The position numbers and the translations under genes were made by a program. A DNA stretch of 47,831 nt from Bacteroidales bacterium (GTDB taxonomy: Bacteria; Bacteroidota; Bacteroidia; Bacteroidales; UBA932): contig JAFRXO010000037.1 in NCBI GenBank assembly GCA_017443465.1, forward strand, positions 1 through 47,831. Reading direction: 5' to 3'. Positions 828 through 47,831 of the stretch are shown here, piece by piece. The notes beneath the pieces were generated by a model. It was not told the DNA's origin and ran no database searches. It saw only the letters and a program-made list of their open reading frames with translations. How positions within the stretch are numbered: position 1 is the first letter of the stretch; every line of letters starts with the position of its first letter.

Positions 828-1844
828 TCAGAATTTTATACGGTATTTCCGGCAGAATTGCACTGCTGGTCCGTAGCCGAGGGCGGCGGAAAGGCGGAGC
901 CAGCGTTCGCTCTCGGAAACGCTCTTTTTCTTGGCATATGCCTGCCCCAGCTGGTAGAGCGTCCGCCCAAGGTCCTCATTCTTCAGTTCCCCTTTCCGGA
1001 TGGCCCTTTCCGTGGTCTCATATAGTGCACAGTCAGCTTCAAAAGCCTTCTTCAGGGAGGAGATACCACCGTCGGTGTCACCTGTCTCCAGCTGCGAGTT
1101 CCCGAGCCCGTCCCAGATCCAGTAGTCCATTGAGCTGGACTTCCCGGAATACCTTTCGATCCAGTCATTGGAGACGGCAATGTTCTTATCGTGGCGGCCG
1201 TCGAGAGACAGGGCCATGCAGTACTGGTAGTGCGTGAACATGTTCAGTTCATCCGCGGCATACAGTGTCCCGAGTGCGTCGCAAGCTTCGGAGAAAGACT
1301 TGGCCTCCAGGAAATCCTGTGCGGCCTGCTTGAGGCTGTCTACCGGATCGGCCTGCATGACGGCGATGGAAGCGGCGTCCCCGATCACCAGGCTGTCGTC
1401 CTTGCGGATGACTTCACCGGCATCCTGGAAAGCCTGGGAACCGACCAGAAGGGGGACGCTCTGGTTGCTGATCACATTTGCGGGCACATTCTTGAACACC
1501 ACATTCCCCACCTGGAGACTCCTCACTATCAGGGCTCCGGCTTTCTGGGAAGATCCATTGGGCATCTTGACTACAGCCATTCCGCGGACATCCGTATCAG
1601 GGATGTACCCGTTCTCGGTAAGGAAGAGATATGTAGTGGATGAAAGGGAGAGGCACCATGGCTCGTCGGTGTAGGTCGCCTTTACGGTGACCCCGTTGAC
1701 AACGGCTTCGAATATGTCCCTCCCGTTCTCCGGGGTCAGCTGGACGTTTATCTGTGCATATGCCCCGGTCCCGGTCAGGAGGCAAAGGACCGTGGCGGAG
1801 AGGGCGGCAAGTTTATGTGCGAAGCGAATATGTTTCATATGCAT
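828..1844 (-). CDS. Secreted retropepsin-like domain protein with TPR/Sel1-like tail; active-site motif lost
   Basis: A 338-residue exported protein. An N-terminal signal peptide ends near residue 30 (AYA then QIN). Residues about 45-140 resemble the retropepsin-like aspartic protease fold seen in secreted clan-AA proteins: a first strand pair ([14 protein letters not shown]), a central hairpin with an MPNGS turn, a [14 protein letters not shown] strand and a closing PLLVGSQAF. The position expected to carry the catalytic D-T/S-G triad reads YTDEPW (58-63), so proteolysis is doubtful. Residues about 165-338 form helical hairpins of TPR or Sel1 type, including the [16 protein letters not shown] unit near the end. 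It is the last gene of a three-gene minus-strand operon, 8 bases after the hydrolase gene. Two in-frame ATGs (1844 and 1838) lie inside CATATGCATATG, and either could be used. Function unknown; a periplasmic binding or scaffold role is inference. Confidence 0.75.
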
Positions 1845-1852
1845 ATGATTGA

Positions 1853-2818
1853 TCAGTAAATGGTCAGCCCGTCATATGCAGGCTGTACGGTCTGCGGTAT
1901 GGATTTGGCCGCACACAGGCTCTTAAGTTCGCGGCAGAACTCTTCGTGCACCGGGAAGGTGTGGCTGAGGTGGGTGAGCCATGTGTGCTGCGCGCCTATC
2001 CGGGCGGAAAGGTCGAGAGCTTCGTCAAGGGAGAAATGGGAGTGGTGGCGGTTGTAGCTTACCGTGTTGAGAGTCACGTGCTTCAGGCCGTGGAGCTTCT
2101 CGAATTCGGATTCCGGGATGCTGCTCATGTCAGTGATGTAGGCTATGTCCCCGAAGCGGAATCCCAGGACTGGCAGCTTGTCGTGCAAGCCGCGTATGGG
2201 GATTATCACCGCCCCGCCGTAATCGGAGCATCTGCAGCCTTCTCCGGAAAGGATTGCCCTGACCGCTTCAGAGGGGGCCGGACGAGCCTCCGAGATGAAA
2301 TTTCCGCAGGGGAGGAGGGAAGAATCGGGGAGCCTGTAGGCATATCCCACGTCGTGGATCCAGGCCAGCTCATGACCTTCGTCGGGAGGTACCAGGAAGG
2401 GATCCTGGCTGATGGTGTGTATCCTCCAGACCGGTGCTCCGGGATACTTCGGGTCGGCGAAAGCGTATTTATATTGCTCCTGCAGGTCGCCCAGAACCTT
2501 GTTCTCGCAGTAGATCTCAACAGCCCTCTTGTCGATGAAATTCAGGGACCTGGTGTCGTCCAGTCCGCCAGTATGGTCCTTGTGGTTGTGTGTCAGGAAT
2601 ATGGCGTCGAGATGCTTCACGTCCGCGCCTATCATCTGCATCCTGAAATCCGGGCCGGCATCCACAAGTATCCTGAGTCCGTCCCACTCCACCAGGACTG
2701 ACGAACGCATACGTTTGTCCCTCGGATCGGCGCTTCTGCAGACTTTACAGTCACATCCGGCTATAGGTACACCCAGCGAGGTGCCTGTTCCGAGGAATGT
2801 CAGTACTGGTCCTTCCAT
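1853..2818 (-). CDS. MBL-fold metallo-hydrolase, PhnP-like
   Basis: Cytosolic metallo-beta-lactamase-fold hydrolase of 321 residues. The N-terminus FLGTGTSLGVP is followed by a CxCxxC motif (AGCDCKVCRS), like the structural zinc site known in PhnP. The catalytic metal motif is THNHKDHTGGLDD; further metal ligands are probably the Asp of YITD and the His residues of THLSH near the C-terminus. PhnP hydrolyses cyclic phosphodiesters of ribose, but the Bacteroidota relatives are mostly uncharacterised, so the substrate is unknown. It is longer than the usual ~255 residues. The extra ~55 residues lie after the HTISQDPF segment and include two cysteines (GCRCSDYGG). Middle gene of an operon with 8-base gaps on either side. 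Confidence 0.88.
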   Translation of the reverse strand: MEGPVLTFLGTGTSLGVPIAGCDCKVCRSADPRDKRMRSSVLVEWDGLRILVDAGPDFRMQMIGADVKHLDAIFLTHNHKDHTGGLDDTRSLNFIDKRAVEIYCENKVLGDLQEQYKYAFADPKYPGAPVWRIHTISQDPFLVPPDEGHELAWIHDVGYAYRLPDSSLLPCGNFISEARPAPSEAVRAILSGEGCRCSDYGGAVIIPIRGLHDKLPVLGFRFGDIAYITDMSSIPESEFEKLHGLKHVTLNTVSYNRHHSHFSLDEALDLSARIGAQHTWLTHLSHTFPVHEEFCRELKSLCAAKSIPQTVQPAYDGLTIY

Positions 2819-2826
2819 GTCAAATC

Positions 2827-4068: not shown

Positions 4069-4093
4069 GGTTTCAATTACTTATTGTATTCCA

Positions 4094-4101
4094 CAAATAT
4101 A
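4094..4101 (-). promoter_or_regulatory. -7 box (TATATTTG) of the 4068-828 operon
   Basis: TAnnTTTG match on the minus strand, 25 bases before the ATG at 4068, in the 39-base gap behind mtaB. It suggests the three-gene operon is not simply read-through from tamB-mtaB. Confidence 0.6.
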
Positions 4102-4107
4102 GTGATT

Positions 4108-5385: not shown

Positions 5386-5386
5386 C

Positions 5387-19286: not shown

Positions 19287-19307
19287 CCCGAAACATAACG
19301 TGTACAT

Positions 19308-19754
19308 ATGAGCCAGACATTTGACAAAGAAGCTATCAAAACCTTCCTGCCCCACAGGGAGCCTATGCTCTTGATTGATGAGGCTACCATTGACGATGAT
19401 GGAGTAGGGCACTGCAGATACACTATCAAGGAAGACGAGTTCTTCACCCGCGGGCATTTCCCCGGTGATCCCGTCGTTCCCGGAGTGATCCAGTGCGAGA
19501 TCATGGCGCAGAGCTGTGCAATCCTCGTAAAGGACGAGATACCCGGAAACATGACCCTTTACATCGGGCTCAACAATGTGAGATTCAAGAATATGGTCCG
19601 TCCCGGAGATGTGTGCGAAATCACTTCCCACATGGTTGACAAGAGGGTCGCAGGAGACAACAAGATCTTCATGTGTTCCGCCAGGCTGGATGTAAACGGG
19701 AAGCTGTGCTGCAAGGGAGACCTGAGCTTCGCCCTGGTCCCGATTGCAAAATAA
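19308..19754 (+). CDS. fabZ: 3-hydroxyacyl-ACP dehydratase, FabZ-type hotdog protein
   Basis: Hotdog-fold dehydratase of 148 residues that removes water from 3-hydroxyacyl-ACP. FLPHREPMLLID corresponds to the family's LPHR.P.LLvD. The catalytic His is in RGHFPGDPVVPGVIQ and the acidic residue in CEIMAQ, where most FabZ proteins have E-A-L/M-A-Q. The preceding DEFFTRGHFPG is standard. The ATG lies in CATATG, 21 bases after fabF. In many Bacteroidota a main fabZ is fused to lpxC, so this may be a second copy serving this cluster. The product chain is not predictable from sequence. Confidence 0.88.
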   Translation: MSQTFDKEAIKTFLPHREPMLLIDEATIDDDGVGHCRYTIKEDEFFTRGHFPGDPVVPGVIQCEIMAQSCAILVKDEIPGNMTLYIGLNNVRFKNMVRPGDVCEITSHMVDKRVAGDNKIFMCSARLDVNGKLCCKGDLSFALVPIAK

Positions 19755-20983: not shown

Positions 20984-22078
20984 TCACTCTCCTGCCTCTT
21001 TCAGGCGCTCGGCGTTCTCGGCTATGGTGAGAGCGTCGATGCAGGCCTGGATATCTCCGTCCATGAAAACGGGAAGATTGTAGGTTGACCAGTTGATCCT
21101 GTGATCGGTAACACGGGACTGGGGATAGTTGTAAGTGCGGATCTTGGCCGAACGGTCACCGGTAGAGACCATGGTCTTGCGTTTTGCTGCAATTCCGTCC
21201 AGGTATTTCTGGTGCTCGCGGTTATAGAGCCTCGTACGAAGTTCCTCAAGGGCGCGCTCGAAGTTCTTGATCTGGGAACGCTCCTCCTGGCACTGGACTA
21301 CTATTCCGGAAGGAATGTGGGTCAGGCGGACGGCGGAGTAGGTGGTGTTGACCCCCTGGCCTCCGGGACCGGACGAACAGTAGGTATCCTTTCGGATGTC
21401 GTTCATGTCGATGGTGATGTCGAATTCACCGGCTTCCGGGAAAACGGCTACAGAGGCTGCAGATGTCTGGATGCGTCCCTGGGTCTCGGTCTGGGGGACC
21501 CTCTGGACACGGTGGACACCTGATTCATATTTCATTATCCCGTAAACTCCGTCGGAGTTGCTGGAAAGCTTGAAGACTACCTGCTTGAAGCCTCCGGACG
21601 AACCGGGAGCCTGGTCGGTGACTTCGAGGGACCATCCTTTGCGCTCTGCGAATTTGGAGTACATGCGGAAAAGGTCTCCCGCGAATATGGCGGCTTCATC
21701 TCCGCCGGTTCCGCCCCTGATCTCTATTATGGCATTCTTCTGGTCATCCGGATCGGCCGGGATGAGGAGGATCTTGATATTCTCTTCGAGGGCGGGGAGT
21801 CCGGGCTCTATGTCGGCGATAACCTCCCTGGCCATCGAACGGAGGTCCTCATCCTTTTCATTGGACATTATGTCCTTCGCCTCGGACAGCTCCTCTATCT
21901 TCTTCTTATAGTCCATTCCGGCCTTGATGATGGGCTGGAGCTCCTTGTAGTCCTTGTTGAGCTGGACATATCTTTTCATGTCACCCATTACCTCAGGATC
22001 CGAAAGCTGGGCCTGAAGTGAGAGGTACCTCTCGTTGATGCTGTCTATCTTTTCTACTATTGAATTCTTGTCTGCCAT
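20984..22078 (-). CDS. prfA: Peptide chain release factor 1
   Basis: RF1 of 364 residues, which terminates translation at UAA and UAG. The codon-recognition tripeptide region reads [10 protein letters not shown] (PQT at 195-197), a PxT variant, and the peptidyl-tRNA hydrolysis motif is [16 protein letters not shown] (GGQ 239-241). Domain 1 helices and the [16 protein letters not shown] segment are complete. The ATG is in CATATG, 3 bases after the stop of the GNAT-like gene, so the two are probably co-transcribed and translationally linked. It ends 49 bases before the transporter gene. Confidence 0.97.
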
Positions 22079-22081
22079 ATG

Positions 22082-24162: not shown

Positions 24163-25470
24163 ATGAAACAGCTGCAATATGTCACGGCCGGGCAGGCCGT
24201 AATGAGCGTCAAGAGCGGCGACCACATCCACCTGAGCAGTGTCGCCAGCGTACCGCATATACTTATCCGCGCACTGGTCGAGCGTGTCGAGTCCGGTGAC
24301 AGGCTGGAGAATATCCATTTCCATCACTTCCACACCGAAGGCCCCGCCCCTTATTCAGAAGAGAAATATGCGGGGATATTCTTCGACCAGGGCTTTTTCA
24401 TAGGTCCTAATGTCCGTGCAAACGTGAATGCCGGATGGGCGGATTACCTGCCTGTGCATCTGGGGGAATCACAGCTGCTGTACCGCAGCGGAAGCCTCCC
24501 GTGCGACGTTGCGATGGTTCAGGTCTCCCTGCCGGATGAAAACGGGATGGTTTCCCTTGGGACGTCCGTAGATGCTTCCGTGGCTGCCGTCGAGGTCGCG
24601 AAGACCGCCATAGCCGTCGTCAACCCGAATGTGCCATATGCATATGGTGACCTGATCCCGCTGTCTCGTTTCGACTTCCTGGTGAAAGATGACACTCCGC
24701 TGGTAACCAAGGATTTCGCAGAGCCTACTCCAACCGAGGTGCTTATCGGAAAGAACTGCGCCGCGCTCGTTCCGGACGGGGCATGTATCCAGATGGGGAT
24801 AGGGGCGCTTCCCAATGCGCTGGCTGCCCAGCTGTCCGACCACAAGGACCTCGGAGTACATACGGAGATGTTCGCGGACGGTATCCTGCGCCTTATCAAG
24901 AAGGGCGTCGTGAACGGAGCCAACAAGAAGATCGACAGGGGACAGGTGGTAGCTTCCTTCCTCCTCGGGTCCCAGGAAGTATATGATTTCATAGACCACA
25001 ATCCCTCGGTCCTGATGAAGGACATCAAGTACACCAACGACCCTGCGGTGATTTCCAGCAACCCCTCAATGATGGCTATCAATTCGGCCACTGAAGTGGA
25101 CCTGACGGGGCAGATCAGTGCCGATTCGATCGGTTCCAGGATATTCTCCGGAACGGGAGGCCAGCTGGATTTCGTCAAGGGCGCAGTAATGTCCGAAGGA
25201 GGTAAGTCTGTGACTGCTTTTGCCTCGAGGACCAACAAGGGGAAGAACAAGATAGTCGGCTTCCTGAACCCTGGGGCCGGTGTCGTTACCCCTAGGGCTG
25301 ATGCCCATTGGATCGTTACGGAATATGGAGCGGTTGACCTCTTCGGAAGGTCGCTTCAGGAGAGGGCCAGGCTCCTGATAGGGATAGCCCATCCTGATGA
25401 CAGGGAAATGCTTGAGCAGCAGGCGTTCGAACGTTTCGGCCCGCACATCAGGCTTGTCAAGACCTGGTAA
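24163..25470 (+). CDS. Acetyl-CoA hydrolase/CoA-transferase family protein
   Basis: A 435-residue family I CoA-transferase, related to acetate:acyl-CoA (butyryl- or 4-hydroxybutyrate-type) transferases and acetyl-CoA hydrolases. Landmarks are the CoA-site MGIGALPNALAAQL, the glutamate E235 in GVHTEMFADG, at the position reported as catalytic (near 238) in 4-hydroxybutyrate CoA-transferase, SGTGGQLDFVKGAVMSEGGKS, and the C-terminal EYGAVDLFGRSLQERARLLIGIAHPDDRE. It most likely moves CoA between acetate and a fermentation acyl-CoA such as succinyl- or propionyl-CoA; the acyl partner cannot be fixed from sequence. The long upstream frame is rejected because it crosses the promoter. Probably monocistronic. 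Confidence 0.9.
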   Translation: MKQLQYVTAGQAVMSVKSGDHIHLSSVASVPHILIRALVERVESGDRLENIHFHHFHTEGPAPYSEEKYAGIFFDQGFFIGPNVRANVNAGWADYLPVHLGESQLLYRSGSLPCDVAMVQVSLPDENGMVSLGTSVDASVAAVEVAKTAIAVVNPNVPYAYGDLIPLSRFDFLVKDDTPLVTKDFAEPTPTEVLIGKNCAALVPDGACIQMGIGALPNALAAQLSDHKDLGVHTEMFADGILRLIKKGVVNGANKKIDRGQVVASFLLGSQEVYDFIDHNPSVLMKDIKYTNDPAVISSNPSMMAINSATEVDLTGQISADSIGSRIFSGTGGQLDFVKGAVMSEGGKSVTAFASRTNKGKNKIVGFLNPGAGVVTPRADAHWIVTEYGAVDLFGRSLQERARLLIGIAHPDDREMLEQQAFERFGPHIRLVKTW

Positions 25471-25982: not shown

Positions 25983-26002
25983 ATTTTCAAAAACGTAATC
26001 AT

Positions 26003-26872
26003 ATGAGAATAGCAGAATCAGAACTGATAATCAATGGAGACGGCACCGCATTCCACCTCCACATGCGCCCTGAACAGCTGGCTAACAATGTGATGCTGGT
26101 AGGAGACCCCAGCCGTGTGGACCTCATTTCCGGCTTTATGACCGATATCGAGTGCAGGAATGAATCCAGGGAGTTCGTTTCAGTGACAGGAAAGTATAAT
26201 GGCAAGAGGGTTACGGCTCTCTCTACCGGAATAGGCACTGACAACATCGACATAGTGATGACGGAGCTTGATGCTCTCGCCAATGTGGATTTTGCCACCC
26301 GCGAGCCCAAGCCCAGGCACCGCAGGCTCACAATACTCAGGGTCGGCACCTGCGGGGCCCTTCATGCCGACATACCTCTGGGATCCAGCATTTTCTCCCA
26401 GTGGTCCATCGGGCATGACGGACTGCTGAACTGGTATTCGGACATAGACAAGGTTACGAACCGGGATATGGAAGATGCCTATATGAGGCATATGGGCTGG
26501 AGCCGCAGGCTTACCGTGCCATATTTCGTCAAGGCCAGCCAGAAGCTTGCCGACAGGTTCAAGGACAGCTCTTTCATGGGGATGACGATAGCCGCTCCCG
26601 GGTTCTATGGCCCCCAGGGCCGTGTAGTACGCCTGGGACTTGTCGACAAGGACTATCTTCAGAAGGTGGAGAGTTTCCGTTACGGAGACTTGAGGATAAC
26701 CAATTTCGAGATGGAAGGCTCAGCTATCGCCGGAATGGCGGCTCTTCTCGGACATGATGCCGGAACTGTCTGCTGTGCAATCGCCAACAGGTATCTCAAG
26801 AGTGCCAATACCGACTATAAACCCTTTGTACGTTCGCTCATAGAACTGTCACTTCAGAAACTCACCCAATAA
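26003..26872 (+). CDS. Nucleoside phosphorylase, uridine phosphorylase-like
   Basis: A 289-residue PNP/UDP-superfamily phosphorylase that would cleave a nucleoside with phosphate to base and ribose-1-phosphate. Visible motifs are the phosphate site VMLVGDPSRVDLISGF, ALSTGIGTDNIDIVMTELDAL, LRVGTCGALHADIPLGSSIFSQ and the ribose-binding NFEMEGSAIAGMAALLGHDAGTVCCAIANR. The overall pattern is closest to the uridine phosphorylase branch kept by many Bacteroidota, and the nearby cdd makes uridine. Base preference is inferred. The ATG is in CATATG. First of three plus-strand genes with gaps of 8 and -4 bases. Confidence 0.9.
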   Translation: MRIAESELIINGDGTAFHLHMRPEQLANNVMLVGDPSRVDLISGFMTDIECRNESREFVSVTGKYNGKRVTALSTGIGTDNIDIVMTELDALANVDFATREPKPRHRRLTILRVGTCGALHADIPLGSSIFSQWSIGHDGLLNWYSDIDKVTNRDMEDAYMRHMGWSRRLTVPYFVKASQKLADRFKDSSFMGMTIAAPGFYGPQGRVVRLGLVDKDYLQKVESFRYGDLRITNFEMEGSAIAGMAALLGHDAGTVCCAIANRYLKSANTDYKPFVRSLIELSLQKLTQ

Positions 26873-29015: not shown

Positions 29016-31331
29016 TTATTCCTTGAGGGAGACAACCGTGCTCTCCTTGTCGGTACCCAGGGAAACCTTCAATGTCCGGAGGTCTTTCCCTGCGGCTTTC
29101 TTGTGAAGTATCTGGTCCTGGATGATGAACTCTGACACAGGGTCTTCAATCCATTTCATCACAGCCCTCTTGAGGGGTCTCGCGCCGTAGCTGGGATCGA
29201 AGCCGGCATCGGCCACGAAACGCTTGGCTGAAGGAGTGACGGTGAGTTTGTAGCCTGCGTCTTCCGCCCTTCTGCGCACATCCATCAGCTCGATGTCGAT
29301 AATCTGCTCTATGTCCTCCCTGTCGAGGGAATTGAAATAGACCTGTTCGTCCACCCTGTTTATGAACTCAGGAGGGAATACTTTCTTTACGGCCTTCTCG
29401 AGAACGGATCTCCTGTCGCTCAGGACATTGCGGGAGGATGTGCTGAACCCCAGCCCGTTCCCGTACTCTTCAATCTCGCGGCTCCCGACGTTGGAGGTCA
29501 TGATTATGATAGTGTTCCTGAAATTCACCTTCCGGCCTTCGCTGTCGGTCAGGCGGCCTTCATCCATGATCTGGAGAAGGATGTTGTAGATGTCAGGATG
29601 TGCCTTCTCTATCTCGTCGAGAAGCACCACGCAATAAGGTTTGCGGCGCACCTGTTCGCTGAGCTGTCCGCCTTCTTCGTACCCGACATATCCCGGAGGG
29701 GCGCCTATGAGCCTGGAGACGGAGAATTTCTCCATATATTCGCTCATGTCTATCCTGACCATGTTGTCTTCGGAGTCGAACAGGTATTCGGCGAGGCATT
29801 TTGCCAGCTGGGTCTTTCCGACTCCGGTGGGGCCGAAAAAGAGGAAAGAGCCTATTGGCCTGTCCGGGTCCTTGAGGCCGGCGCGGTTGCGCTGGATGGC
29901 CCTGACTACGGTGTCGATGGCTTCGTCCTGTCCTATTATCCTGGTTTTCAGCCTGTCACGCATCTTCAAAAGCCTGGTGCCTTCGGATTCTGCGACCTTG
30001 TTAACCGGGATGCCTGTGATCTTGGACACTATGGTGGCGATGTCTTCCACGTTCACCTCTGTCTTCGGGGCTCCGTCAGCGCGGAGCTTTACCATCGACC
30101 CAGCCTCGTCCATCGCGTCGATGGCCTTGTCCGGGAGGAAGCGGTCGGTGATGTACCTGTCGGTCAGCCTGGCGCAAGATTCTATGGCATCCGGGGTGTA
30201 GGTGACCTTGTGGAAGTCTTCGTAGTTTTTCTTGATATTCTGGAGGATGGTGATAGTCTGCGGGACGTCGGTGGCTTCGACAACGATTTTCTGGAAACGC
30301 CTGTCCAGGGCTCCGTCCTTTTCGACAATCTTGGTGAATTCATCCATTGTAGTGGCGCCTATGCACTGGAGCTGGCCCCTTGCCAGGGCGGGCTTGAGGA
30401 TGTTTGCGGCATCCAGGCTTCCCTGGGCACCTCCGGCGCCTACTATGGTGTGGAACTCATCTATGAACAGGATGAGGTCAGGATCCTGGGAGGCTGTTTC
30501 AATGATGGATTTTACACGCTTTTCGAAATCACCCCTGTATTTGGTTCCGGCGACTACCGAAGCGATGTCCAGGGAGATTATCTTCTTCTTGGCAAGGGCG
30601 GGGGAAATGTCCCCGGAAGCTATCCTCAGGGCAATTCCCTCAACGATGGCGGACTTCCCGACGCCGGGCTCGCCGATTAGCATAGGATTGTTCTTTTTCC
30701 GCCTTCCCAGGATTTCTATGACCCTGCTTATCTCCTTGTCGCGGCCTATGATCGGATCCAGCTTGCCCTCCATGGCAGCCTTTGTCAGGTCGAGGCCGAA
30801 GTCGGTTATGTCCATCTTCTCCTTTTCCGGTCCGTCGCCGCTGACAGGCTGTTTGTCTGAAGTGCCGTCTTCTTCGGGGGCACTGCTCTTGAGAAGCCCC
30901 TGCTCATGCATGCTTGAGAGCAGTTTGCCGTAGTCAATAGCCTGTGACCGGAGCCAGGCCTGTCCGTAGTTCTCCGTGGTCCTGCACAGGGCCAGGAGGA
31001 GGTGTAGCGAAGTGGCTTCCGGATTCTTCAGTCTCGTCGCCTCCAGTACAGTGATACTCAGTACATTCTGCGCGAGGCGGGAGAAGGATATGTGTTCGGT
31101 TTCAGAGTACGGGATGTTTTCGCGGGTGAAGATCCTGCCGTCTATGAATGTCTTCAATTCGGCGAGATCCGCCCCGAATCCTCTCAGGACCCGGCAGGCG
31201 TCATTGTCTTCATGCCTGAGCATTCCCAGGAAGAGGTGGTCAGGGCCTATCGAATAGTTCCCCGTGCGCATGGCTTCTTCCCTGGCGTACTTGATTATTC
31301 CGTTCAGTTCTTGAGATATTCTGATTACCAT
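29016..31331 (-). CDS. ATP-dependent Clp protease ATP-binding subunit, ClpA/ClpC family without M domain
   Basis: A 771-residue Hsp100 unfoldase that feeds substrates into ClpP. N-domain repeats are at 1-145. The D1 ATPase has Walker A GEPGVGKS (220-227), Walker B LFIDEFH and an arginine finger region. The D2 ATPase has GPTGVGKT (500-507) and VLLDEIEKAHPD. The loop GLGF (627-629 LGF) is the ClpP-docking tripeptide. D1 passes directly to the linker VNVEDIATIVSKITGIPVNK, with no ~50-residue coiled-coil M domain, which resembles ClpA, whereas D1 sequence details resemble ClpC. The ATG at 31331 (MVIRISQE) is preferred over an upstream in-frame ATG that would include the promoter box. Divergent from gyrA. 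Confidence 0.93.
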   Translation of the reverse strand: MVIRISQELNGIIKYAREEAMRTGNYSIGPDHLFLGMLRHEDNDACRVLRGFGADLAELKTFIDGRIFTRENIPYSETEHISFSRLAQNVLSITVLEATRLKNPEATSLHLLLALCRTTENYGQAWLRSQAIDYGKLLSSMHEQGLLKSSAPEEDGTSDKQPVSGDGPEKEKMDITDFGLDLTKAAMEGKLDPIIGRDKEISRVIEILGRRKKNNPMLIGEPGVGKSAIVEGIALRIASGDISPALAKKKIISLDIASVVAGTKYRGDFEKRVKSIIETASQDPDLILFIDEFHTIVGAGGAQGSLDAANILKPALARGQLQCIGATTMDEFTKIVEKDGALDRRFQKIVVEATDVPQTITILQNIKKNYEDFHKVTYTPDAIESCARLTDRYITDRFLPDKAIDAMDEAGSMVKLRADGAPKTEVNVEDIATIVSKITGIPVNKVAESEGTRLLKMRDRLKTRIIGQDEAIDTVVRAIQRNRAGLKDPDRPIGSFLFFGPTGVGKTQLAKCLAEYLFDSEDNMVRIDMSEYMEKFSVSRLIGAPPGYVGYEEGGQLSEQVRRKPYCVVLLDEIEKAHPDIYNILLQIMDEGRLTDSEGRKVNFRNTIIIMTSNVGSREIEEYGNGLGFSTSSRNVLSDRRSVLEKAVKKVFPPEFINRVDEQVYFNSLDREDIEQIIDIELMDVRRRAEDAGYKLTVTPSAKRFVADAGFDPSYGARPLKRAVMKWIEDPVSEFIIQDQILHKKAAGKDLRTLKVSLGTDKESTVVSLKE

Positions 31332-31351
31332 GTTTTGGTTCTGATTATGTA

Positions 31352-31359
31352 CAAACATA
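31352..31359 (-). promoter_or_regulatory. -7 box (TATGTTTG) of the Clp ATPase gene
   Basis: Minus-strand TAnnTTTG match, 20 bases before the ATG at 31331. Confidence 0.6.
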
Positions 31360-31386
31360 CTAAACAATTATGGGACCACAGCATGT

Positions 31387-31450: not shown

Positions 31451-31500
31451 CACGTTTATCTAAAAGATAAAAAATCGCGTTTGAATTATAAGTAATCCAT

Positions 31501-34050
31501 ATGGACGAACTGGATAAGAAAGCAGAAGAGCAGAAAAACGAAGAATCCCGGCTGGGTATCATAGAACCGGTTGAGATCAATGACGAAATGAAGAATGCGT
31601 ACATCGACTATTCGATGTCCGTCATCGTTTCCAGGGCGCTCCCTGACGCAAGGGACGGCCTTAAACCCGTTCAGCGCAGGGTGCTGTTCGGAATGGAGGG
31701 CCTCGGCCTGAATTACTCCGGCCAGACCAAGAAATCGGCGAGGATCGTAGGAGAGGTCCTCGGTAAGTTCCACCCCCACGGGGACTCCAGCGTCTATGAC
31801 GCGATGGCCAGGCTGGCCCAGAGCTGGAACCAGCGTTATCCACTTGTCTACGGACAGGGTAACTTCGGTTCCATGGACGGCGACCCTGTCGCTGCCATGA
31901 GGTACACCGAGGCCAAGCTGGAGCGCCTCTCCGGCGACGTGCTTAACGACCTTGACAAGGATACGGTTGATTTCCAGCTCAATTTCGATGACACCATCGA
32001 GGAACCCGTAGTTCTTCCGACCAAGGCTCCGCTGCTTCTTCTGAACGGCTCGTCCGGTATCGCAGTCGGTATGGCCACCAACATGGCTCCCCACAATCTC
32101 GGGGAATGCTGCGATGCCATATGCGCATATATCGACAACCCCGACATCACCGTAGATGAGCTGATGAAGTACCTCAAGGGACCCGACTTCCCGACGGGAG
32201 GCATCATCATGGGCCGCCAGGGTATCAAGGATGCATATGAGACCGGCCGCGGCCGTGTTTCCATACGTTCGAAGACCGAGATCGAGGTCGATGACAAGGG
32301 CCGTGAGACCATAGTCGTGACCGAAATCCCTTATATGGTCAACAAGAAGGAGATGATCGAGCGCATCGGCCAGATGGTCGAGGAAAAGAGGCTCGAAGGC
32401 ATCACCTACATCAACGACGAGACCTCCAGGGAGGGTGTCAGGATAATATTCCGTGTAAAGCAGGGCTACAACGCCAACGTGGTGCTCAACACCCTGTTCA
32501 AATACACCCCGCTTCAGTCCAGTTTCTCCATCAACAATGTCGCCCTTGTCGGAGGCAGGCCCCAGGTCCTCACCCTCAAGGACATACTTAAAGTGTTCGT
32601 GGACTTCAGGCACGATGTCATCGTGCGCAGGACCCAGTTCGAGCTGGCCAAGGCACAGAAACGCGCCCACATCCTCGAAGGCCTCCTGAAGGCTATCGAT
32701 GTCATCGACGAGATAGTGCACATCATCCGCCATTCTTCAAGCGTGGACGAAGCCAAGTCGACCCTCATCTCCACCTTCGACTTCTCCGAGGCACAGGCTA
32801 CCGCAATCGTGGAAATGCGCCTGAGACAGCTCACCGGACTTGAAAGGGAGAAACTCCAGGCAGAGTACGACGAACTCGAGAAGTTCATCGCCCGCTGCGA
32901 AGAGATCCTCGGCAGCACCGAGCTTCAGATGGAAATCATCAAGAAGGAATCCGCCGACCTCAAGGCCAGGTACGGAGATCCGCGCCGCACGGAAATCACC
33001 CTTTCCGATGACGAATTCAATCCCGAGGACTTCTATGCTGACGAAGATGTCGTCATAACCATATCCCACACCGGATACATCAAGCGTACTGCGCTTACGG
33101 AGTTCCGTACCCAGAACAGGGGAGGTGTCGGTGTCCGCGGGTCTTCGACCAAGGAAGACGATTTCATAGAGCATGTATATGTCGCCAATATGCACTCGAC
33201 GATGCTCCTGTTCACCGAACTCGGAAGGTGCTACTGGCTGAAGGTCTACAATATCCCCGAGGGCTCCCGTGCTTCAAAGGGACGTGCTATCCAGAACATC
33301 CTCAACCTGTCGGCCGACAACAAGGTTCAGGCATATATCAATGTCCCGACCCTCGCTGACTCCGACTACATCAACAACCACTATATCGTCCTGGTGACCA
33401 AGAGGGGTACCGTCAAGAAGACCCTTCTCGAAGAATTCTCCAGGCCGAGGGTGAACGGAGTAGCCGCGGTTTCCATCCGCGAAGGGGATGAACTCGTTGA
33501 GGTCGCTCTGACCAACGGGAACGAGGAACTGCTTATCGCAGCGCGTGAAGGACGTTGCGTCCGCTTCAATGAGAAGGACGTCAGGGCGATGGGACGTACC
33601 GCTACCGGCGTTCGTGGCATCAATATTGAAGAAGACGACAGCGTGATAGGTATGATAGCCTATGATCCGAATGCGGAAGATGCCAAGGATCACACGATTA
33701 TGGTAGTAAGTGAGAATGGTATCGGGAAGCGGAGCGAGTTTGAAGAGTACAGGATCACGGCAAGGGGAGGCAAGGGAGTCAAGACCATAGCCATTACTCC
33801 CAAGACCGGAAAGCTCGTAGCGATGAAGAATGTGACAGAGGCGAACGACCTGATGATAATCAACCGCTCGGGCATAACGATCAGGATGCCGGTAGAAGAC
33901 ATCCACGTTGCAGGAAGGGCTACGCAGGGAGTGAAGCTGATAAATATCAGGGAAGGAGATTCGATCACTGCCGTTTCGGTTGTAGAGAAGAGCGAGGAGG
34001 CAGTCAAAGACGAAAACATTAATACTGAAATAGAAGATACAAACAACTAA
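31501..34050 (+). CDS. gyrA: DNA gyrase subunit A
   Basis: Breaks and rejoins DNA in the A2B2 gyrase that introduces negative supercoils. 849 residues. The catalytic tyrosine is Y135 ([10 protein letters not shown]). The quinolone-determining region reads [12 protein letters not shown], with Ser at the E. coli S83 position (S96) and Asp at the D87 position (D100), so no classical resistance substitution is present. The C-terminal beta-pinwheel begins with the GyrA box QNRGGVG (538-544), a variant of QRRGGKG that still keeps the GG. An acidic tail follows. The ATG is in CATATG. It is followed 12 bases later by a TPR protein gene, an arrangement I recall from other Bacteroidales. Confidence 0.98.
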
Positions 34051-38077: not shown

Positions 38078-38084
38078 CTATTCG

Positions 38085-40045: not shown

Positions 40046-40067
40046 CAGAATATATCAACACAATCAT

Positions 40068-42827
40068 ATGGATTACGATTTCAGGAGTATAGAGGCCAGA
40101 TGGCAGAAATACTGGGCGGAAAACAAGACATTCAAGGCTGAGAACGACTCTCCAAAGCCTAAATACTATGTTCTGGACATGTTCCCGTATCCTTCGGGAG
40201 CCGGCCTTCATGTAGGCCATCCCCTTGGATACATCGCCAGCGACATTTTCTCCCGCTACAAGAGGCTCAAGGGCTTCAATGTCCTGCATCCCATGGGATA
40301 TGACGCCTTCGGCCTTCCTGCAGAGCAATATGCCATCCAGACCGGACAGCATCCGGAGAAGACTACATCCGCGAACATCGACCGTTACCGTTCCCAGATG
40401 GACAGGATCGGCTTTTCATATGATTGGGACAGGGAAGTCAGGACATGTGATCCGGCATACTATAAATGGACCCAGTGGACATTTGTCAAGATGTTCAAGA
40501 GCTGGTACTCCCTGGAAATGGGAAAGGCCCGTCCCATCGCCGAACTGGTGGCTGCTTTCGAGCAGAACGGCACGGCAGGAGTGAAGGCCGCATGCGGGGA
40601 GGAGATGCATTTTACAGCCGAGGAGTGGAAGAAGTTCTCTCCGAAACGCAAGTCTGACATCCTGATGAACTACCGTATAGCCTACCAGGGTGACTCTTTC
40701 GTGAACTGGTGTCCTCAGCTCGGAACCGTCCTGGCCAATGACGAAGTCAAGGACGGACTTTCGGTCCGTGGAGGGTTCCCGGTAGAGCAGAAGAAAATGA
40801 AACAGTGGCAGTTGCGTATCTCCGCATATGCCCAGAGGCTCCTGGATTCCCTCGATGACCTTGACTGGAGCGATTCGCTGAAAGAGATGCAGCGCAACTG
40901 GATCGGCCGCTCCGAAGGTGCGGAGATGCATTTCAGGGTTGCCAACGGCGGAAAGCAGTATGACCTAGAGATATTCACCACCCGTGCCGACACAATCTTC
41001 GGAGTTACCTTCATGGTCCTTTCTCCTGAGAGCGAGTGGGTCGCCAGGCTTACGTCACCTTCACAGAAAAAGGCTGTAGAAGAGTACCTTGCCGCCGCCA
41101 AGAAGAAGACCGAGCGTGAGCGCATCGCCCAGACCAAGACGGCTACCGGAGTCTTCACCGGATCATATGCCGAGAATCCTGTCACACATGACCGTATCCC
41201 GGTGTGGATATCCGATTATGTGCTCGCCGGTTATGGTACCGGTGCCATCATGGCAGTGCCTGCCCATGACAGCCGCGACTATGTTTTCGCCAAGACTTTC
41301 AACCTCCCGATAATCCCGGTGATCGAAGGCGCCGACATCTCCCAGGAGAGTTTCGATGCCAAGTCCGGGAAGATGGCTAATTCAGGATTCCTTAACGGGC
41401 TCGATGTAAAGGAAGCTATTCCGGCTGCCATAAAGTATGTCGAGGAACATGGCATCGGACGCAGGAAAGTGAACTACCGCCTGCGTGATGCTATCTTCTC
41501 CCGCCAGAGGTACTGGGGTGAGCCCTTCCCGATCTACTACAAGGACGGCATCCCGACACCGCTGCCTGCTGAGGACCTTCCACTGACACTTCCGGAAATA
41601 ACTGAATTCAAGCCCACTGAGACCGGAGAACCACCTCTGGCCCGTGCCGCTGACTGGACATATGACGGATATCCGCTGGAGACCAGCACCATGCCCGGTT
41701 TCGCCGGTTCCAGCGCCTACTATCTCAGGTATATGGATCCTCATGACGATGAGGCTCTGGTGGACAGGGACGCCAACAATTACTGGCGCCAGGTGGACCT
41801 GTATGTCGGAGGAACCGAACACGCAACCGGCCACCTTATCTATTCCCGCTTCTGGAACAAGTTCCTCTACGACCTGGGATATGTCTGCGAGGACGAGCCT
41901 TTCCGCAAGCTTGTCAACCAGGGAATGATCCAGGGACGTTCGTCGTTCGTGTACAGGATCGTTGGGACGAATACCTTCGTGTCCTGCGGCCTGAAGGATG
42001 GTTACGAGGTAACCCCGATCCATGTCGATGTGAACCTGGTACATGCCGACAAGCTGGACATAGAGGGCTTCAAGGCATGGAGGCCGGATTACGCCGATGC
42101 ACAGTTCATCCTCGAGAACGGGGAATACGTATGCGGCTGGGCTGTTGAAAAGATGTCTAAGTCCATGTTCAACGTGGTGAACCCGGATGATATCTGCGAC
42201 CGCTACGGGGCTGACACCCTCAGGCTCTATGAAATGTTCCTCGGACCGGTCGAGCAGTCCAAACCCTGGGATACCAAGGGTATCGACGGAGTCCACAGGT
42301 TCCTGCGCAAGTTCTGGAGGCTGTTCTATGACGCTGACCGTTTCCTGGTTGAGGACACCGCCCCGGATGCATCCGAACTCAAGGCCCTCCACAAGCTCAT
42401 TGCCAAGGAAGAAGCTGATATCGAAGCATTCTCGTACAACACCACGGTCAGTGCGTTCATGATCGCTCTCGGAGAACTCGGAGAATGCCACAAGCGTGCG
42501 ATCCTCGAGCCTCTCGTGATCCTGCTTTCACCTTTTGCCCCGCATATGGCCGAGGAGCTCTGGCATGACCTGGGACATGAGGGAAGCGTGGCATATGCTT
42601 CATTCCCCGAATATGATGCGGCCCTTACGGTTGAGGACAGTTGCACATATGCAGTGTCCTTCAACGGGAAGACCCGTTTTACGGCTGAGCTGCCGGTCTC
42701 CCTGGACCGTGCCGGCGTGCAGGATAAGGTGCTCGCGATGGAACAGACAATGCGCTGGACCGAGGGCAAGAACGTAGTGAAGGTCATAGTAGTTCCCGGG
42801 AAGATTGTGAACATAGTGCTGAAATGA
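40068..42827 (+). CDS. leuS: Leucyl-tRNA synthetase
   Basis: Class I synthetase charging tRNA-Leu, 919 residues. The HIGH motif appears as HVGH (48-51, in [16 protein letters not shown]) and KMSKS at 695-699 ([10 protein letters not shown]). The CP1 editing domain contains the [17 protein letters not shown] and [18 protein letters not shown] segments with the conserved threonine and aspartate region. The leucine-specific [16 protein letters not shown] segment is present before KMSKS. The ATG is in CATATG. It overlaps the first yitT by four bases (ATGA), so the transporter-like pair is probably co-translated with it. Confidence 0.98.
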
Positions 42828-43762
42828 GTTCAAGGAAGATCTTCGGGGCAGTCTGGGACTACTGCGTGATGACGCTCGGAGCTTTCCTCTATTCCGTGGC
42901 GTGGGACTGGTTCATGATCCCGAATAACATGGCGGACGGAGGACTTACCGGTGCATGCACTATCCTCCAGTTCGCGACCGGGATCCCGGTGTCCCACTCT
43001 TTCGCCGTAGTGAACGGCATCCTTCTCATCCTGGCATTCGCGCTCCTGGGAAGGGGCATGGGCATCCGTACCATTTTCTGCATTGCCCTTTCCACGTTAA
43101 TGCTGGATTTCTTTGCCCGTCCGGAGTTTGCGCATATGCGTTCGCTCCCCGGCAATTTCCTCTATGTGGACAACATGATCCTGGTCCCCGTTATCGGGGC
43201 CTTCCTGGAGGCAGTCGGCATCACCATAATCCTGGGACGTGGCGGAAGTACCGGAGGGACAGATATTTTTGCCCTGATCTTCAATAAGTTCTGGCCGGTC
43301 TCCCTCGGTCAGGTCTATCTTTATACCGATCTTGTGATCATCGCATCCATCATCCTGGTCCCAGGGCACACGTTCAGCCAGATGATGTACGGTTACCTTG
43401 CGATGATTACGTTCTCCTTCACGGTGGATTTCATGACCCTCGGAAAGAAATCAACGGCCCAGGTCATGATTTTCTCATCCAAGTTCGAACAGATCGCTGA
43501 TTTCATCATCAATGACCTCGAGAGGGGAGTGACCGTAGTGAAGTCCGTCGGCTGGTACACCAAGGAGGACAGGGATGTCCTGATGATATATGTCCGCAAA
43601 CGCGAGGTCCGGACCATTACGAAGGCTGTCAAGGCCATCGATCCCAAGGCTTTCGTCGCGGTTTCGCCTGCGAGCAGTGTCTTCGGCGAGGGCTTCGACC
43701 AGATCAAGACGGGAATGAACCTGAATCTCATATCCAAGAAAAATGGCGACACTGAAGACTAA
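42824..43762 (+). CDS. YitT family membrane protein, copy 1
   Basis: A 312-residue protein with an N-terminal YitT membrane region (about five helices, residues 10-205) and a C-terminal cytosolic DUF2179 domain (about 215-300). Family features are [42 protein letters not shown] and, in the C-terminal domain, [29 protein letters not shown] and [20 protein letters not shown]. The family's function is unresolved; transport or small-ligand sensing has been proposed. It starts inside the leuS stop and overlaps the second copy by 20 bases. Confidence 0.92.
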
Positions 43763-44663
43763 TTTCTGGACTTATTTCAAGGAGTACTCCCTGATAACCC
43801 TGGGTATCGTGCTCTACACTGCCGGCTGGGTGATTTTCCTGATACCCAACAATCTCGTCGGCGGCGGTGTGACCGGTATCAGTTCGATCATCCAGTATGC
43901 GACGGGGATCAAGATGGGTTTCACCTACCTTGTCCTGAATGCCATCCTGCTTGCCATGGCCATGTTCTTCATTGGTTTCGGATTCGGAGGGAAGACGGTC
44001 TATGCGATTGTGCTGGCCTCCTTCCTGCTCAACTTCTTCCAGACAGCGATCCCCCCGACCATCATAGAGGCCCTTGCCTTGAACAACGGTAAACTGATGT
44101 CCACCATCATGGGCGGGATCATGGCCGGTACCGGAATCGGCATGGCGATATCCGAGGGAGGCAGTACCGGTGGAACGGACATCATAGCCCTGATAGTGAA
44201 CAAGTACCGTAATGTCTCTCCCGGCAGGATGATCCTTGCGATGGACGTAGTCATCATCCTGTCTTCGCTGGCAGTGCCCTCTTACACGTCCGGCGGTGAA
44301 ACCATCGGGTGGGCTGACAAGGTCACCACTATAGTTTACGGTCTTATCCTCGTCACGATCAACAGCTATGTGCTGGATGTATATCTTGCGGGTTCCAAGC
44401 AGTCCGTCCTTCTGTTCGTACTCTCCAAGAAGCATGAGCAGATAGCGGATGCGATAACGGGAGAGCTGCACAGGGGCGTTACCGTCCTTGAGGGCCGGGG
44501 ATGGTTCACCAAGGAGAATACCGAAGTGCTCATGGTGATTACCCGCAAGACCGATCTCAACGTGATGCTTAAATATATCAAGGCAATCGATCCGAATGCA
44601 TTCCTGTCGGTATCTTCCGTTACAGGAGTTTACGGAAAGGGGTTTGACAAGATCAAGGGATAA
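43743..44663 (+). CDS. YitT family membrane protein, copy 2
   Basis: A 306-residue paralogue of the preceding gene, with the same order of motifs: [46 protein letters not shown], then HRGVTVLEGRGWFTKENTEVLMVITRKTD and IDPNAFLSVSSVTGVYGKGF. The two copies are clearly homologous but strongly diverged, so the duplication is old. Together they could form a heteromer; that is inference from the 20-base overlap and co-translation. It ends before a terminator-like hairpin at 44711. Confidence 0.92.
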   Translation: MATLKTNFWTYFKEYSLITLGIVLYTAGWVIFLIPNNLVGGGVTGISSIIQYATGIKMGFTYLVLNAILLAMAMFFIGFGFGGKTVYAIVLASFLLNFFQTAIPPTIIEALALNNGKLMSTIMGGIMAGTGIGMAISEGGSTGGTDIIALIVNKYRNVSPGRMILAMDVVIILSSLAVPSYTSGGETIGWADKVTTIVYGLILVTINSYVLDVYLAGSKQSVLLFVLSKKHEQIADAITGELHRGVTVLEGRGWFTKENTEVLMVITRKTDLNVMLKYIKAIDPNAFLSVSSVTGVYGKGFDKIKG

Positions 44664-44710
44664 AGAAAGAGCCGATAATCCTAAGAAACGTAAATATAAC
44701 GCTTACAGAG

Positions 44711-44739
44711 TCCTGCAGGAGTTTTTTCTGCAGGATTTT
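44711..44739 (+). terminator. Terminator-like hairpin after the leuS-yitT-yitT operon
   Basis: TCCTGCAG (44711-44718) and CTGCAGGA (44728-44735) form a perfect 8-base stem around a 9-base loop, followed by TTTT. It lies 47 bases after the second yitT stop and just before the promoter of the AraC-type gene. The U tract is short. Confidence 0.6.
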
Positions 44740-44743
44740 GTGT

Positions 44744-44751
44744 TATTTTTG
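44744..44751 (+). promoter_or_regulatory. -7 box (TATTTTTG) of the AraC-type regulator
   Basis: TAnnTTTG match, 44 bases before the ATG at 44796 and immediately after the terminator-like hairpin. Confidence 0.55.
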
Positions 44752-44795
44752 TTTTGTTAAACGATACAAAATTTTGGTGAAGAGATTTGTGAAGC

Positions 44796-46298: not shown

Positions 46299-46302
46299 AA
46301 TG

Positions 46303-46310
46303 CAAATGTA
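46303..46310 (-). promoter_or_regulatory. -7 box (TACATTTG) of the rluA-type gene
   Basis: Minus-strand TAnnTTTG match, only 4 bases before the ATG; the transcript would be leaderless or nearly so. Confidence 0.55.
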
Positions 46311-46334
46311 GTCATTTCCGGCGATATGCTCCAC

Positions 46335-46372
46335 TGACAAATTGTCATAAAAAGCCATTGGCACGGCATTGG
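46335..46372 (+). promoter_or_regulatory. dnaK upstream element: TGACAA-A-TTGTCA palindrome, then TTGGCA and TTGG
   Basis: A perfect 6-1-6 palindrome (46335-46347) is followed by TTGGCA (46358-46363), five bases and TTGG (46369-46372), 40 bases before the dnaK ATG. No TAnnTTTG box is found for dnaK, so this may be its operator or an alternative-sigma promoter. Confidence 0.5.
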
Positions 46373-46411
46373 ATAAACCAGGGGACGGAATAACATAAAA
46401 ATATCAGATAT

Positions 46412-47831
46412 ATGGGAAAAATAATAGGAATTGACCTTGGTACCACCAATTCATGTGTGGCCGTGATGGAAGGCAACCAGCCGACCGTCATCATCAATAA
46501 TGAAGGTGAACGTACGACTCCTTCCGTAGTGGCTTTCACTGACGGGGGAGAAAGGAAGATCGGAAATCCGGCAAAGCGCCAGGCTATAACGAACCCTCAC
46601 AATACTGTCTTCTCCATCAAGAGGTTCATGGGTGAGACCTATGACCAGGTGAACAAGGAAGTCGCCAGGGTTCCTTACAAGGTAGAAAGAGGTGACAACA
46701 ATACCCCGCGTGTGGATATCAATGGCAGGCTCTATTCTCCTCAGGAGATTTCGGCAATGATTCTCCAGAAGATGAAGAAGACAGCGGAAGATTATCTGCG
46801 CCAGAGCGTAACAGAGGCCGTCATCACCGTCCCCGCCTATTTCTCCGATTCACAGCGTCAGGCTACGAAAGAGGCCGGCAAGATCGCCGGACTGGATGTC
46901 AAGAGGATCATCAATGAGCCTACCGCGGCTGCATTGGCATATGGCCTGGACAAGAAGAACAAGGACATGAAGGTCGCTGTCTATGACCTTGGCGGCGGCA
47001 CATTCGATATTTCCATCCTGGAACTTGGCGGAGGTGTGTTCGAGGTGAAGGCTACCAATGGTGACACCCATCTCGGCGGAGACGATTTCGACCAGGTTGT
47101 AATCGACTGGCTTGCCGGCGAGTTCGCTTCAGAGAACGGCGGCATCGACCTCCGCAAGGACCCCATGGCTCTCCAGAGGCTCAAGGAGGCTGCCGAGAAG
47201 GCAAAGATCGAACTCTCTAACCAGAGCTCGACAGAGATCAACCTCCCGTACATAATGCCCGTCGACGGTATTCCGAAGCACCTCGTGAAGACCCTTTCCA
47301 GGGCCAAGTTCGAGCAGCTTTGCGACGCCCTCTTCCAGAAGACCATCGAGCCCTGCCGTCAGGCACTCGCCGATGCTCATCTCAGTCCGTCGGACATCGA
47401 TGAGGTCCTTCTGGTCGGTGGTTCCACCAGGATCCCCAAGATCCAGGAAATCGTGAAGAATTTCTTCGGCAAGGAGCCCAACAGGAGCGTGAATCCGGAT
47501 GAGGTAGTCGCCATAGGTGCTTCCATCCAGGGCGGTGTCCTCGCAGGAGATGTCAAGGATGTCCTCCTTCTGGATGTCACTCCTCTTGCCCTTGGAATCG
47601 AGACTCTCGGCGGAGTTATGACTAAGCTTATCGAGTCCAACACTACGATCCCGACCCGCAAGTCCCAGATCTTCTCCACTGCTGCGGACAACCAGCCTTC
47701 TGTTGAGATCAGGGTCCTCCAGGGCGAGCGTCCGATGGCTAAGGACAACAAGCAGATCGGTATCTTCCATCTTGACGGTATCGCTCCGGCTCCGAGGGGA
47801 ATACCCCAGATCGAGGTGACATTCGACATCG
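46412..47831 (+). CDS. dnaK: Chaperone DnaK (Hsp70), 3' end missing
   Basis: ATP-driven chaperone that binds exposed hydrophobic segments, working with DnaJ and GrpE (not in the window). The open frame starts [21 protein letters not shown] and runs 473 codons to the edge. It covers the whole nucleotide-binding domain (phosphate loops IDLGTTNS and [54 protein letters not shown]), the linker [16 protein letters not shown] and most of the beta substrate-binding domain. The lid is cut off. The ATG at 46412 gives the standard N-terminus. Confidence 0.98.

Follow-up and report, generated by a model that had tools for sequence, protein, structure and literature searches.

Genome-wide excess of CATATG, a six-letter palindrome, in an uncultured member of the Bacteroidales and one sister species

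What maintains a six-letter palindrome at many times its expected frequency throughout a bacterial genome? The question is raised by a contig of 47,831 nt (JAFRXO010000037.1, assembly GCA_017443465.1) from an uncultured Bacteroidales bacterium, the whole of which is referred to here as the window. A preliminary description of this DNA reported an approximately eightfold excess of CATATG, visible in every codon phase, and suggested a force on the DNA word itself, in the manner of the HIP1 palindrome of cyanobacteria. A solitary methyltransferase, a DNA-binding protein, a mutation or repair bias and an uptake-type tag were among the agents considered, and codon-shuffled genes, the rest of the genome, its relatives and a methyltransferase search were proposed as checks. 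These were run on the draft genome containing the window (G000; 2.65 Mb, 96% complete), on a sister species (G423; 79% complete) and on further members of the genus. Counts of synonymous opportunities in G000 derive from 901 kb read as sequence. Genes were called with simple ORF and codon-score scripts rather than a gene finder, so that starts and gaps are approximate.

Abundance of CATATG against composition and codon usage

The window contains 82 copies of CATATG, with first bases at the following positions.

Sites, part 1: 935, 1757, 1836, 1842, 1873, 3291, 3549, 4005, 4422, 4844, 5325, 5592, 5906, 6521, 6569, 7249
Sites, part 2: 7673, 8149, 9065, 9559, 10301, 12237, 12493, 12869, 13552, 14320, 14521, 15123, 15243, 15347, 15491, 17237
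Sites, part 3: 17593, 19068, 19305, 19846, 20292, 20720, 22076, 22232, 22398, 22995, 23492, 23617, 23790, 24635, 24641, 26000
Sites, part 4: 26489, 28045, 28520, 28675, 31498, 32118, 32234, 34775, 35042, 35333, 35782, 35979, 36772, 37534, 37558, 37768
Sites, part 5: 38133, 38552, 38711, 38738, 40065, 40417, 40825, 41164, 41659, 42543, 42592, 42646, 43133, 45074, 45583, 45667
Sites, part 6: 45688, 46938 (the last site, 46938-46943)

Mononucleotide composition predicts 9.8. The reported excess is real and stronger than claimed. Among near-words, CATATA occurs 16 times, CATATC 20 times and CATATT 12 times. Markov expectations for CATATG rise with order (9.8, 9.6, 23.7, 41.9 and 68.3 for orders 0-4), but those of high order are inflated by the word itself, which feeds them; they were therefore set aside, and a synonymous-codon shuffle served as the deciding null. 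Across 441 called ORFs, 964 copies were observed against 208 expected (sd 8.5), with a surplus in each codon phase (138 v 83, 587 v 71.5 and 239 v 53.5). Codon usage fails to predict the count, and a codon shuffle leaves an excess of 4.5-fold. The remainder of the genome proved as rich as the window: the whole 2.65-Mb draft holds 4230 copies of CATATG versus 79 of the reversed word, GTATAC, and density is 1.6-1.8 per kb.

Most relatives are not rich and one sister is, and the excess is accordingly a lineage-specific trait rather than an absent one. Apart from G000 and G423, at 1.6/kb, no other of 400 genomes of the genus exceeds 0.72/kb. Context-matched odds of CATATG reach 22.3 in the window and 14.5 in G423; in 18 comparators they were not significant at 0.05, except in G211 (1.8, p=0.04) and G227 (<1, p=0.02). 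A codon-shuffle scan of hexamer palindromes over 93 loci placed CATATG of G423 at the top (z 6.6), followed by TATATA/ATATAT of G421 (z 5.5, 5.1). Composition or codon usage alone, to which we assign a negligible probability, is already contradicted for G000 and G423, both by these matched odds and by the excess that survives codon shuffling. It does fit pieces of G211, G115, G207 and G022, whose raised counts lie near second-order expectation, and these genomes were rejected as independent cases.

Use of opportunities within and between genes

We defined an opportunity as a place where synonymous codon choice could spell CATATG, and compared counts with those of 19 comparator genomes of the same genus. 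His-Met opportunities were spelled CATATG in 197/207 instances in G000, 32/41 in G423 and 17/31 in the comparators; the corresponding figures were 827/1053, 119/158 and 76/311 for [APTS]-Tyr-[G-codon], and 355/506, 81/108 and 19/139 for X-Ile-Cys/Trp. Shuffle and opportunity counts both show the excess in all three codon phases, where the preliminary description had seen it, and this supports a force on the DNA word itself, as with HIP1. Called genes of the window take 73 of their 87 opportunities. That description had also remarked on nearly empty stretches in the Clp ATPase gene and gyrA; the former is indeed without sites, and the cause is missing opportunity, gyrA using two of its three and the ClpC-like ORF being site-free because it offers none.

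29016..31367, minus strand: ClpC-like ORF (named from its translation, judged by eye), 0 CATATG, 0/0 opportunities

Matched odds for each letter were 12-34 at inner positions and about 7-15 at the outer base, with transitions resembling transversions: A2/C2 34.0, A2/G2 22.8 and A2/T2 21.6 at position 2; T3/C3 19.5 and T5/C5 12.3 at positions 3 and 5; A4/C4 25.8 and A4/T4 24.2 at position 4; and C1/A1 14.9, C1/G1 6.6 and C1/T1 7.2 at the outer base. The last 20 codons of genes showed reduced use (28/49), as did the bottom decile of GC3 (105/160). Several contigs of G000 take few or none of their opportunities (C33 2/17, C22 0/6, C18 0/5, C8 0/5), a pattern that recent or foreign DNA would show. 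Certain dipeptides are raised as well: the observed/expected ratio of the His-Met dipeptide is 1.60 in G000 v 0.58 in comparators (reverse Met-His 0.97 v 0.86), and that of Ile-Cys 1.51 v 1.17 (reverse Cys-Ile 1.01 v 1.01).

The palindrome also extends across start codons, in the window at the following places.

1842..1847, minus strand: CAT/ATG over the start codon of ORF 828-1844
19305..19310, plus strand: CAT/ATG over the start codon of ORF 19308-19754
22076..22081, minus strand: CAT/ATG over the start codon of ORF 20984-22078
26000..26005, plus strand: CAT/ATG over the start codon of ORF 26003-26872
31498..31503, plus strand: CAT/ATG over the start codon of gyrA, ORF 31501-34050
40065..40070, plus strand: CAT/ATG over the start codon of ORF 40068-42827

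With the same caller, CAT directly precedes 92/510 ATG starts in G000 (about 18%) and 6/190 in comparators (about 3%). Between genes the pattern is weaker. Non-coding DNA of the window has 0 CATATG in 1,269 bases, while gap interiors (gaps of 15-300 bp) hold 15 in 20.3 kb, where 4.6-6.5 were expected. An apparent exemption of intergenic DNA was rejected, since truncation of genes at the ends of stretches accounted for part of it; joining stretches and admitting open-ended ORFs gave the excess of about 3-fold, which is far below the prediction of a uniform 15- to 25-fold force on free DNA. Conservation is stronger in non-coding DNA (81% v 56% at four-fold sites), which may or may not suffice as the cause of this weak enrichment.

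Strength in genes and over start codons, combined with weakness in gap interiors, is what might be anticipated if CAUAUG were favoured in transcripts, through RNA binding, translation or decay. Flanking bases provide a further test of such mRNA-level selection. In the Tyr phase, use drops to 0.64 with C at -1 and to 0.61 with G at +1, as against 0.80-0.88 with other bases; these main effects mirror each other between strands, contrary to a transcript-level cause, as is the likeness of the three codon phases. Flank symmetry is not complete: T is preferred at +3 (0.90, p=1e-4) with no mirrored effect (-3 p=0.6), which favours the transcript, and both position -5 and the Ile phase show weaker effects. 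Codon score, for its part, shows no clear trend with CATATG use except in the lowest fifth of genes, and on balance selection on mRNA seems very unlikely.

Slow loss of sites and candidate agents

Between the sisters, 21 CATATG losses were found vs 219 at the neutral rate, a ratio of 0.096 (bootstrap 0.049-0.173), an estimate that assumes a shared equilibrium from which the pair departs, since private sites are unequal (G000 17, G423 4; p=0.007). Loss this slow is consistent with a 2Ns of about 3, whether from selection or from drive, values of 3.0-3.5 predicting loss ratios of 0.157-0.109. Writing of CATATG by gain-biased mutation or very-short-patch repair, which would likewise ignore protein and spacing, is contradicted, and we consider it extremely improbable: losses should then run near neutral, and the sister's alternative states mix transitions and transversions at several positions, so that no one substitution type explains the excess. 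Slower mutation of CATATG, bound or better repaired, could lead to its accumulation without selection and would produce similar odds against every neighbour word. The loss ratio then predicted, 0.045-0.069 (for 22- or 14.5-fold odds), is approached by the bootstrap range, but the point estimate is higher, and at 22.3-fold odds only 9.8 losses would be predicted in place of the 21 seen (Poisson p=0.001), although at 14.5-fold odds p is 0.09. Such protection is given very little probability.

A solitary methyltransferase as the agent is not supported by the search for one. Three Pfam families (PF01555, PF02086, PF00145; 20 genomes each) and two others (PF02384, PF07669; 10 genomes each) gave no above-cut-off match in G000 or G423, though relatives match; sub-cut-off PF07669 rows were PrmC in both genomes and a TrmN-like protein, none of these matches being credible. 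A screen for [DNS]PP[YFW] in 716 ORFs of 901 kb yielded 5 carriers, none a DNA methyltransferase; an MT-A70 family search, silent in every control genome, carries no weight either way. One or more of the five families are likewise missing from certain non-rich relatives, G227 and G098 among them, and methyltransferase absence is therefore not special to the rich pair. A modification enzyme outside these families, or missed by incomplete drafts in which some contigs are all N, might nevertheless recognise CATATG and sustain it by methylation-linked upkeep, as proposed for HIP1. In cyanobacteria, HIP1 and the alternate HIPs as a rule have matching methyltransferases in the genome (PMC4390886). 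Given the searches above, we think such an enzyme improbable.

Drive by DNA uptake, whereby the clade's competence receptor would prefer CATATG-bearing DNA and recombination would spread the word, has arithmetic resembling that of selection and would yield the neighbour-wide odds and slow loss observed. Both G000 and G423 encode a Competence (ComEC-type) domain, but so do 7/8 other genomes searched, and the ComEC-type ORF of G000 (contig C2, 18919-20007) is just 362 codons long. Opportunity use stays at 0.77-0.84 over distances to the next site from <25 bp to as much as 800 bp, those within 25-50 bp of another site being used like isolated ones, with no sub-additivity. Spacing is random (CV 1.03, n=1072) and gap enrichment modest, where uptake sequences are evenly spaced and commoner in non-coding DNA according to the part of PMC1939737 concerned with them. 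The literature surveyed gave no uptake motif in Bacteroidota, and an uptake drive appears possible but unlikely.

We put at about even the chances that CATATG is a palindrome of HIP-like kind, each copy being favoured individually by way of a putative protein recognising double-stranded DNA. The advantage per copy would resemble selection at about 2Ns = 3, acting on the double strand and raising the odds of CATATG some 15- to 25-fold above its one-letter neighbours; such a force would override codon preference, shift certain residues towards His-Met and Ile-Cys, and set CAT before about one-fifth of ATG starts. This reading accords with the saturation, the like odds of transitions and transversions, the mirrored bases at -1/+1, the indifference to spacing, the confinement to two sisters among the genomes surveyed, the slow loss, and the five methyltransferase families without a credible match; the weak excess in gap interiors, the unmirrored +3 effect, the reduced use near gene ends and at low GC3, and the unequal private sites speak against it. 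The agent may be a sequence-specific, probably homodimeric, double-stranded-DNA-binding protein of nucleoid type, offered as a candidate class only, which could have arisen or switched specificity on the stem of the two-species clade and would act via ordinary selection on genome-wide binding. If so, the core ATAT should be strictest and the outer C/G weaker, with CCATATGG a poorer site than GCATATGC. The broader reading, methylation-independent marking of the genome by a lineage-specific DNA-recognising protein (a nucleoid-type binder or an uptake receptor), under which most synonymously reachable hexamers became that protein's own site despite codon preference and at a cost to some amino acids, in two sister species only among those sampled, seems to us evenly poised between right and wrong.

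Comparison with known systems

A limited literature search on CATATG over-representation or palindromes, and on Bacteroidetes motifs and methylation, found no paper. NdeI-type restriction-modification recognises the same six letters; restriction targets are usually avoided in genomes, whereas CATATG fills most of its opportunities here and the families searched yielded no methyltransferase. Known Chi sites are non-palindromic and act by orientation. They resemble CATATG as an over-represented short word, a class named in part of PMC4390886. The uptake sequences of Pasteurellaceae and Neisseriaceae are also short words in thousands of copies, explicable by a drive acting like weak selection, but they are longer and non-palindromic, and PMC1939737 describes them as regular in spacing and commoner than expected outside coding DNA. 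CATATG, by contrast, is palindromic, randomly spaced and weak in gap interiors.

The function of HIP1-type palindromes is unsettled. Opportunity counting turns an over-represented word into a per-site force (odds of about 15-25, 2Ns near 3), and with two carrier sisters among non-carrier relatives the responsible gene should be findable by comparison. The published HIP model, in the portion of Elhai 2015 that bears on it (PMC4390886), ties these palindromes to methylation; a saturated case with no detectable methyltransferase of five main families separates palindrome from methylation. HIPs generally occur with an enzyme that methylates the whole word or its core, although some HIP1-rich genomes lack a CGATCG enzyme (same portion of PMC4390886); five Pfam families and the motif screen yielded none for CATATG, which is hence called HIP-like rather than a HIP of the methylated kind. 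The HIP repair model, as outlined there, expects saturation at about 1 site per 1000 nt, whereas CATATG use is independent of distance up to 800 bp. CATATG further differs from HIP1 (GCGATCGC) in its six bases, A+T core and Bacteroidales host. HIP1 and the alternate HIPs of cyanobacteria are likewise short, lineage-specific palindromes, and CATATG shares with them genome-wide over-representation beyond codon and composition nulls, presence in all reading frames, and a similar density, about 1 site per kb for HIPs in that part of PMC4390886 and 1.6-1.8 per kb here.

Abundance and synonymous use of CATATG

CATATG occurs 82 times in the window against 9.8 predicted by base composition, which bears out the preliminary description of its enrichment throughout this contig. 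The draft genome to which the window belongs as contig 1 (G000; 2,645,555 bases in 81 contigs, 96.4% complete, 2.9% contamination) holds 4230 copies, versus 79 of the reversed word, and 1564 lie within the 901 kb read as sequence. The excess also persists against codon-shuffled genes, a check proposed at that stage: among ORFs above the score limit, CATATG was the top hexamer relative to a synonymous-codon shuffle (1384 observed, 306 expected). Its placement is random (spacing CV 1.03, n=1072), and adjoining CATATGCATATG pairs with no gap lie at 1836-1847 and 24635-24646 of the window. GTATAC and its neighbours are strongly depleted in the coding sample (GGTATAC, 8 vs 88 by codon shuffle), with GTATAC found 12 times in 613 kb.

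Every place in a called gene where synonymous codons permit CATATG was counted as an opportunity, in each of three codon phases. The comparators were 20 pieces from 19 other genomes of the genus; among those with 20-kb pieces, the five nearest to G000, as judged from GyrA, are G094, G068, G227, G098 and G159.

Opportunities spelling CATATG, by codon phase (His-Met counts are those with CAT; AGY serines are excluded from 827/1053)
Phase: G000, first 613 kb; codon-usage prediction; G000, 901 kb; comparators; five nearest
His-Met: 138/144; 50%; 197/207; 17/31; 0/7
[APTS]-Tyr-[G-codon] (Tyr phase): 587/767; 8%; 827/1053; 76/311; 0/78
X-Ile-Cys/Trp (Ile phase): 235/336; 13%; 355/506; 19/139; 0/27

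The five nearest pieces (L196-L200) thus used 0/112 opportunities, which may represent mild avoidance of a word saturated in G000; matched odds, setting CATATG against its one-letter neighbours with context controlled, were 0 in each, with p<0.05 in G227 only. The absence of CATATG from a long housekeeping stretch, noted previously, is real at the ClpC-like gene of the window, but is explained by that gene offering zero opportunities. Elsewhere in the window, the adjacent, slightly overlapping ORFs 42824-43762 and 43743-44663 were judged by eye to encode putative related membrane proteins.

Protein sequences and gene boundaries also carry the preference. Observed/expected ratios in G000 versus comparators were 1.60 and 0.58 for His-Met and 1.51 and 1.17 for Ile-Cys, with the reverse dipeptides little or not raised (Met-His, 0.97 vs 0.86; Cys-Ile, 1.01 vs 1.01). 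CAT directly precedes 92/510 ATG starts in G000 (92/484 in its scored gene set) and 6/190 in comparators processed with the same caller. Gap interiors (gaps of 15-300 bp, 20.3 kb) contain 15 CATATG where 4.6-6.5 are expected, an excess far below that in genes, and one-letter neighbours there are near expectation. Between G000 and its sister G423, non-coding DNA of the window is 81% conserved and four-fold sites 56%; constraint on non-coding DNA may therefore account for part of this weaker enrichment.

Distribution among relatives, and gain and loss

In a survey of 400 genomes of the genus, evenly drawn from a larger group and with rounded genome sizes, only G000 and G423 (both 1.6) exceeded one CATATG per kb. 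The proposed repetition in sister genomes accordingly held for G423 (GyrA 97% identical; next relative, 80%) and for no other, the third-ranked genome, G211, reaching 0.72. A wider set, 393 genomes from the order with completeness of 80% or more, had G000 as its only member above 0.5 per kb; G423 (79%) fell below that completeness bound. Matched odds were 22.3 in the window, 14.5 in G423, and 0 to 2.8 in 18 comparators, with p<0.05 only in G211 (1.8) and G227 (0). A 20-kb locus of another relative (L189, G421:C71:26001-46000) carries 21 TATATA and 26 ATATAT (first-order expectation, 1.5 and 2.2; by codon shuffle, 17 vs 4.3 and 21 vs 6.7), possibly a different favoured word.

A 45-kb alignment between the window and G423 shows CATATG retained at 56/73 places, where the mean hexamer is retained at 39%; the non-CATATG states were varied. 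A set of 78 orthologous blocks spanning 29,888 codons showed 21 losses of CATATG where amino acids are conserved, against 219 predicted by matched controls, a ratio of 0.096 (bootstrap 0.049-0.173). Gain-biased mutation predicts a ratio of 1, selection or drive at 2Ns of 3.0-3.5 predicts 0.157-0.109, and protection alone predicts 0.045 (at 22-fold odds) or 0.069 (at 14.5-fold odds). Of the private sites in these blocks, 17 belong to G000 and 4 to G423 (p=0.007); the force seems either weaker or waning in G423 or else still on the rise in G000.

Shape of the preference and its possible agents

Each one-letter neighbour was set, in motif context, against identical codons in control context; the odds lie between 12 and 34 for the inner positions and between 6.6 and 15 for the outer base, and are similar for transitions and transversions. 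In the Tyr phase, a C at -1 reduces use to 0.64 and a G at +1 reduces it to 0.61, mirrored effects, with other bases at 0.80-0.88; T is preferred at +3 (p=1e-4) with no mirror at -3 (p=0.6). Ile-phase flank effects track codon identity. Use is independent of spacing, at 0.77-0.84 for next-site distances from <25 bp to 800 bp; it drops to 53/90 between 800 and 1600 bp and to 7/28 at greater distances, DNA that we read as foreign or recent. Opportunities are nearly unused on four contigs of G000 (C33, 2/17; C22, 0/6; C18, 0/5; C8, 0/5), which appear to be recent, mobile or contaminating DNA.

Our favoured ordering of agents begins with a candidate dsDNA-binding protein through which CATATG is favoured under ordinary selection, a reading to which we give about an even chance. 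Second is the spread of CATATG by uptake drive, which we consider unlikely; a ComEC-type domain is present in G000, G423 and 7/8 other genomes searched. Third, and a little less probable again, is an unrecognised modification enzyme acting at CATATG. The solitary methyltransferase suggested earlier did not emerge: PF01555, PF02086 and PF00145 (20 genomes) and PF02384 and PF07669 (10 genomes) gave nothing above cut-off in either G000 or G423, each family being matched in other genomes, and the motif [DNS]PP[YFW], found in 5/716 ORFs of the 901 kb, yielded no DNA methyltransferase; none of these searches identified the agent. The weak PF07669 matches correspond to PrmC in G000 and G423 alike and, in G000, to a TrmN-like protein falling under that model's cut-off; this TrmN-like protein is also one of the five motif-bearing ORFs, the others being a conserved RNA-methyltransferase-like family, a glycosidase, an aminotransferase and a TonB-dependent receptor.

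For HIP1 and the alternate HIPs of cyanobacteria, cognate methyltransferases are described as generally present (PMC4390886), a feature in which G000 and G423, as far as searched, differ. These palindromes are the closest known kind, and CATATG has their statistical features.
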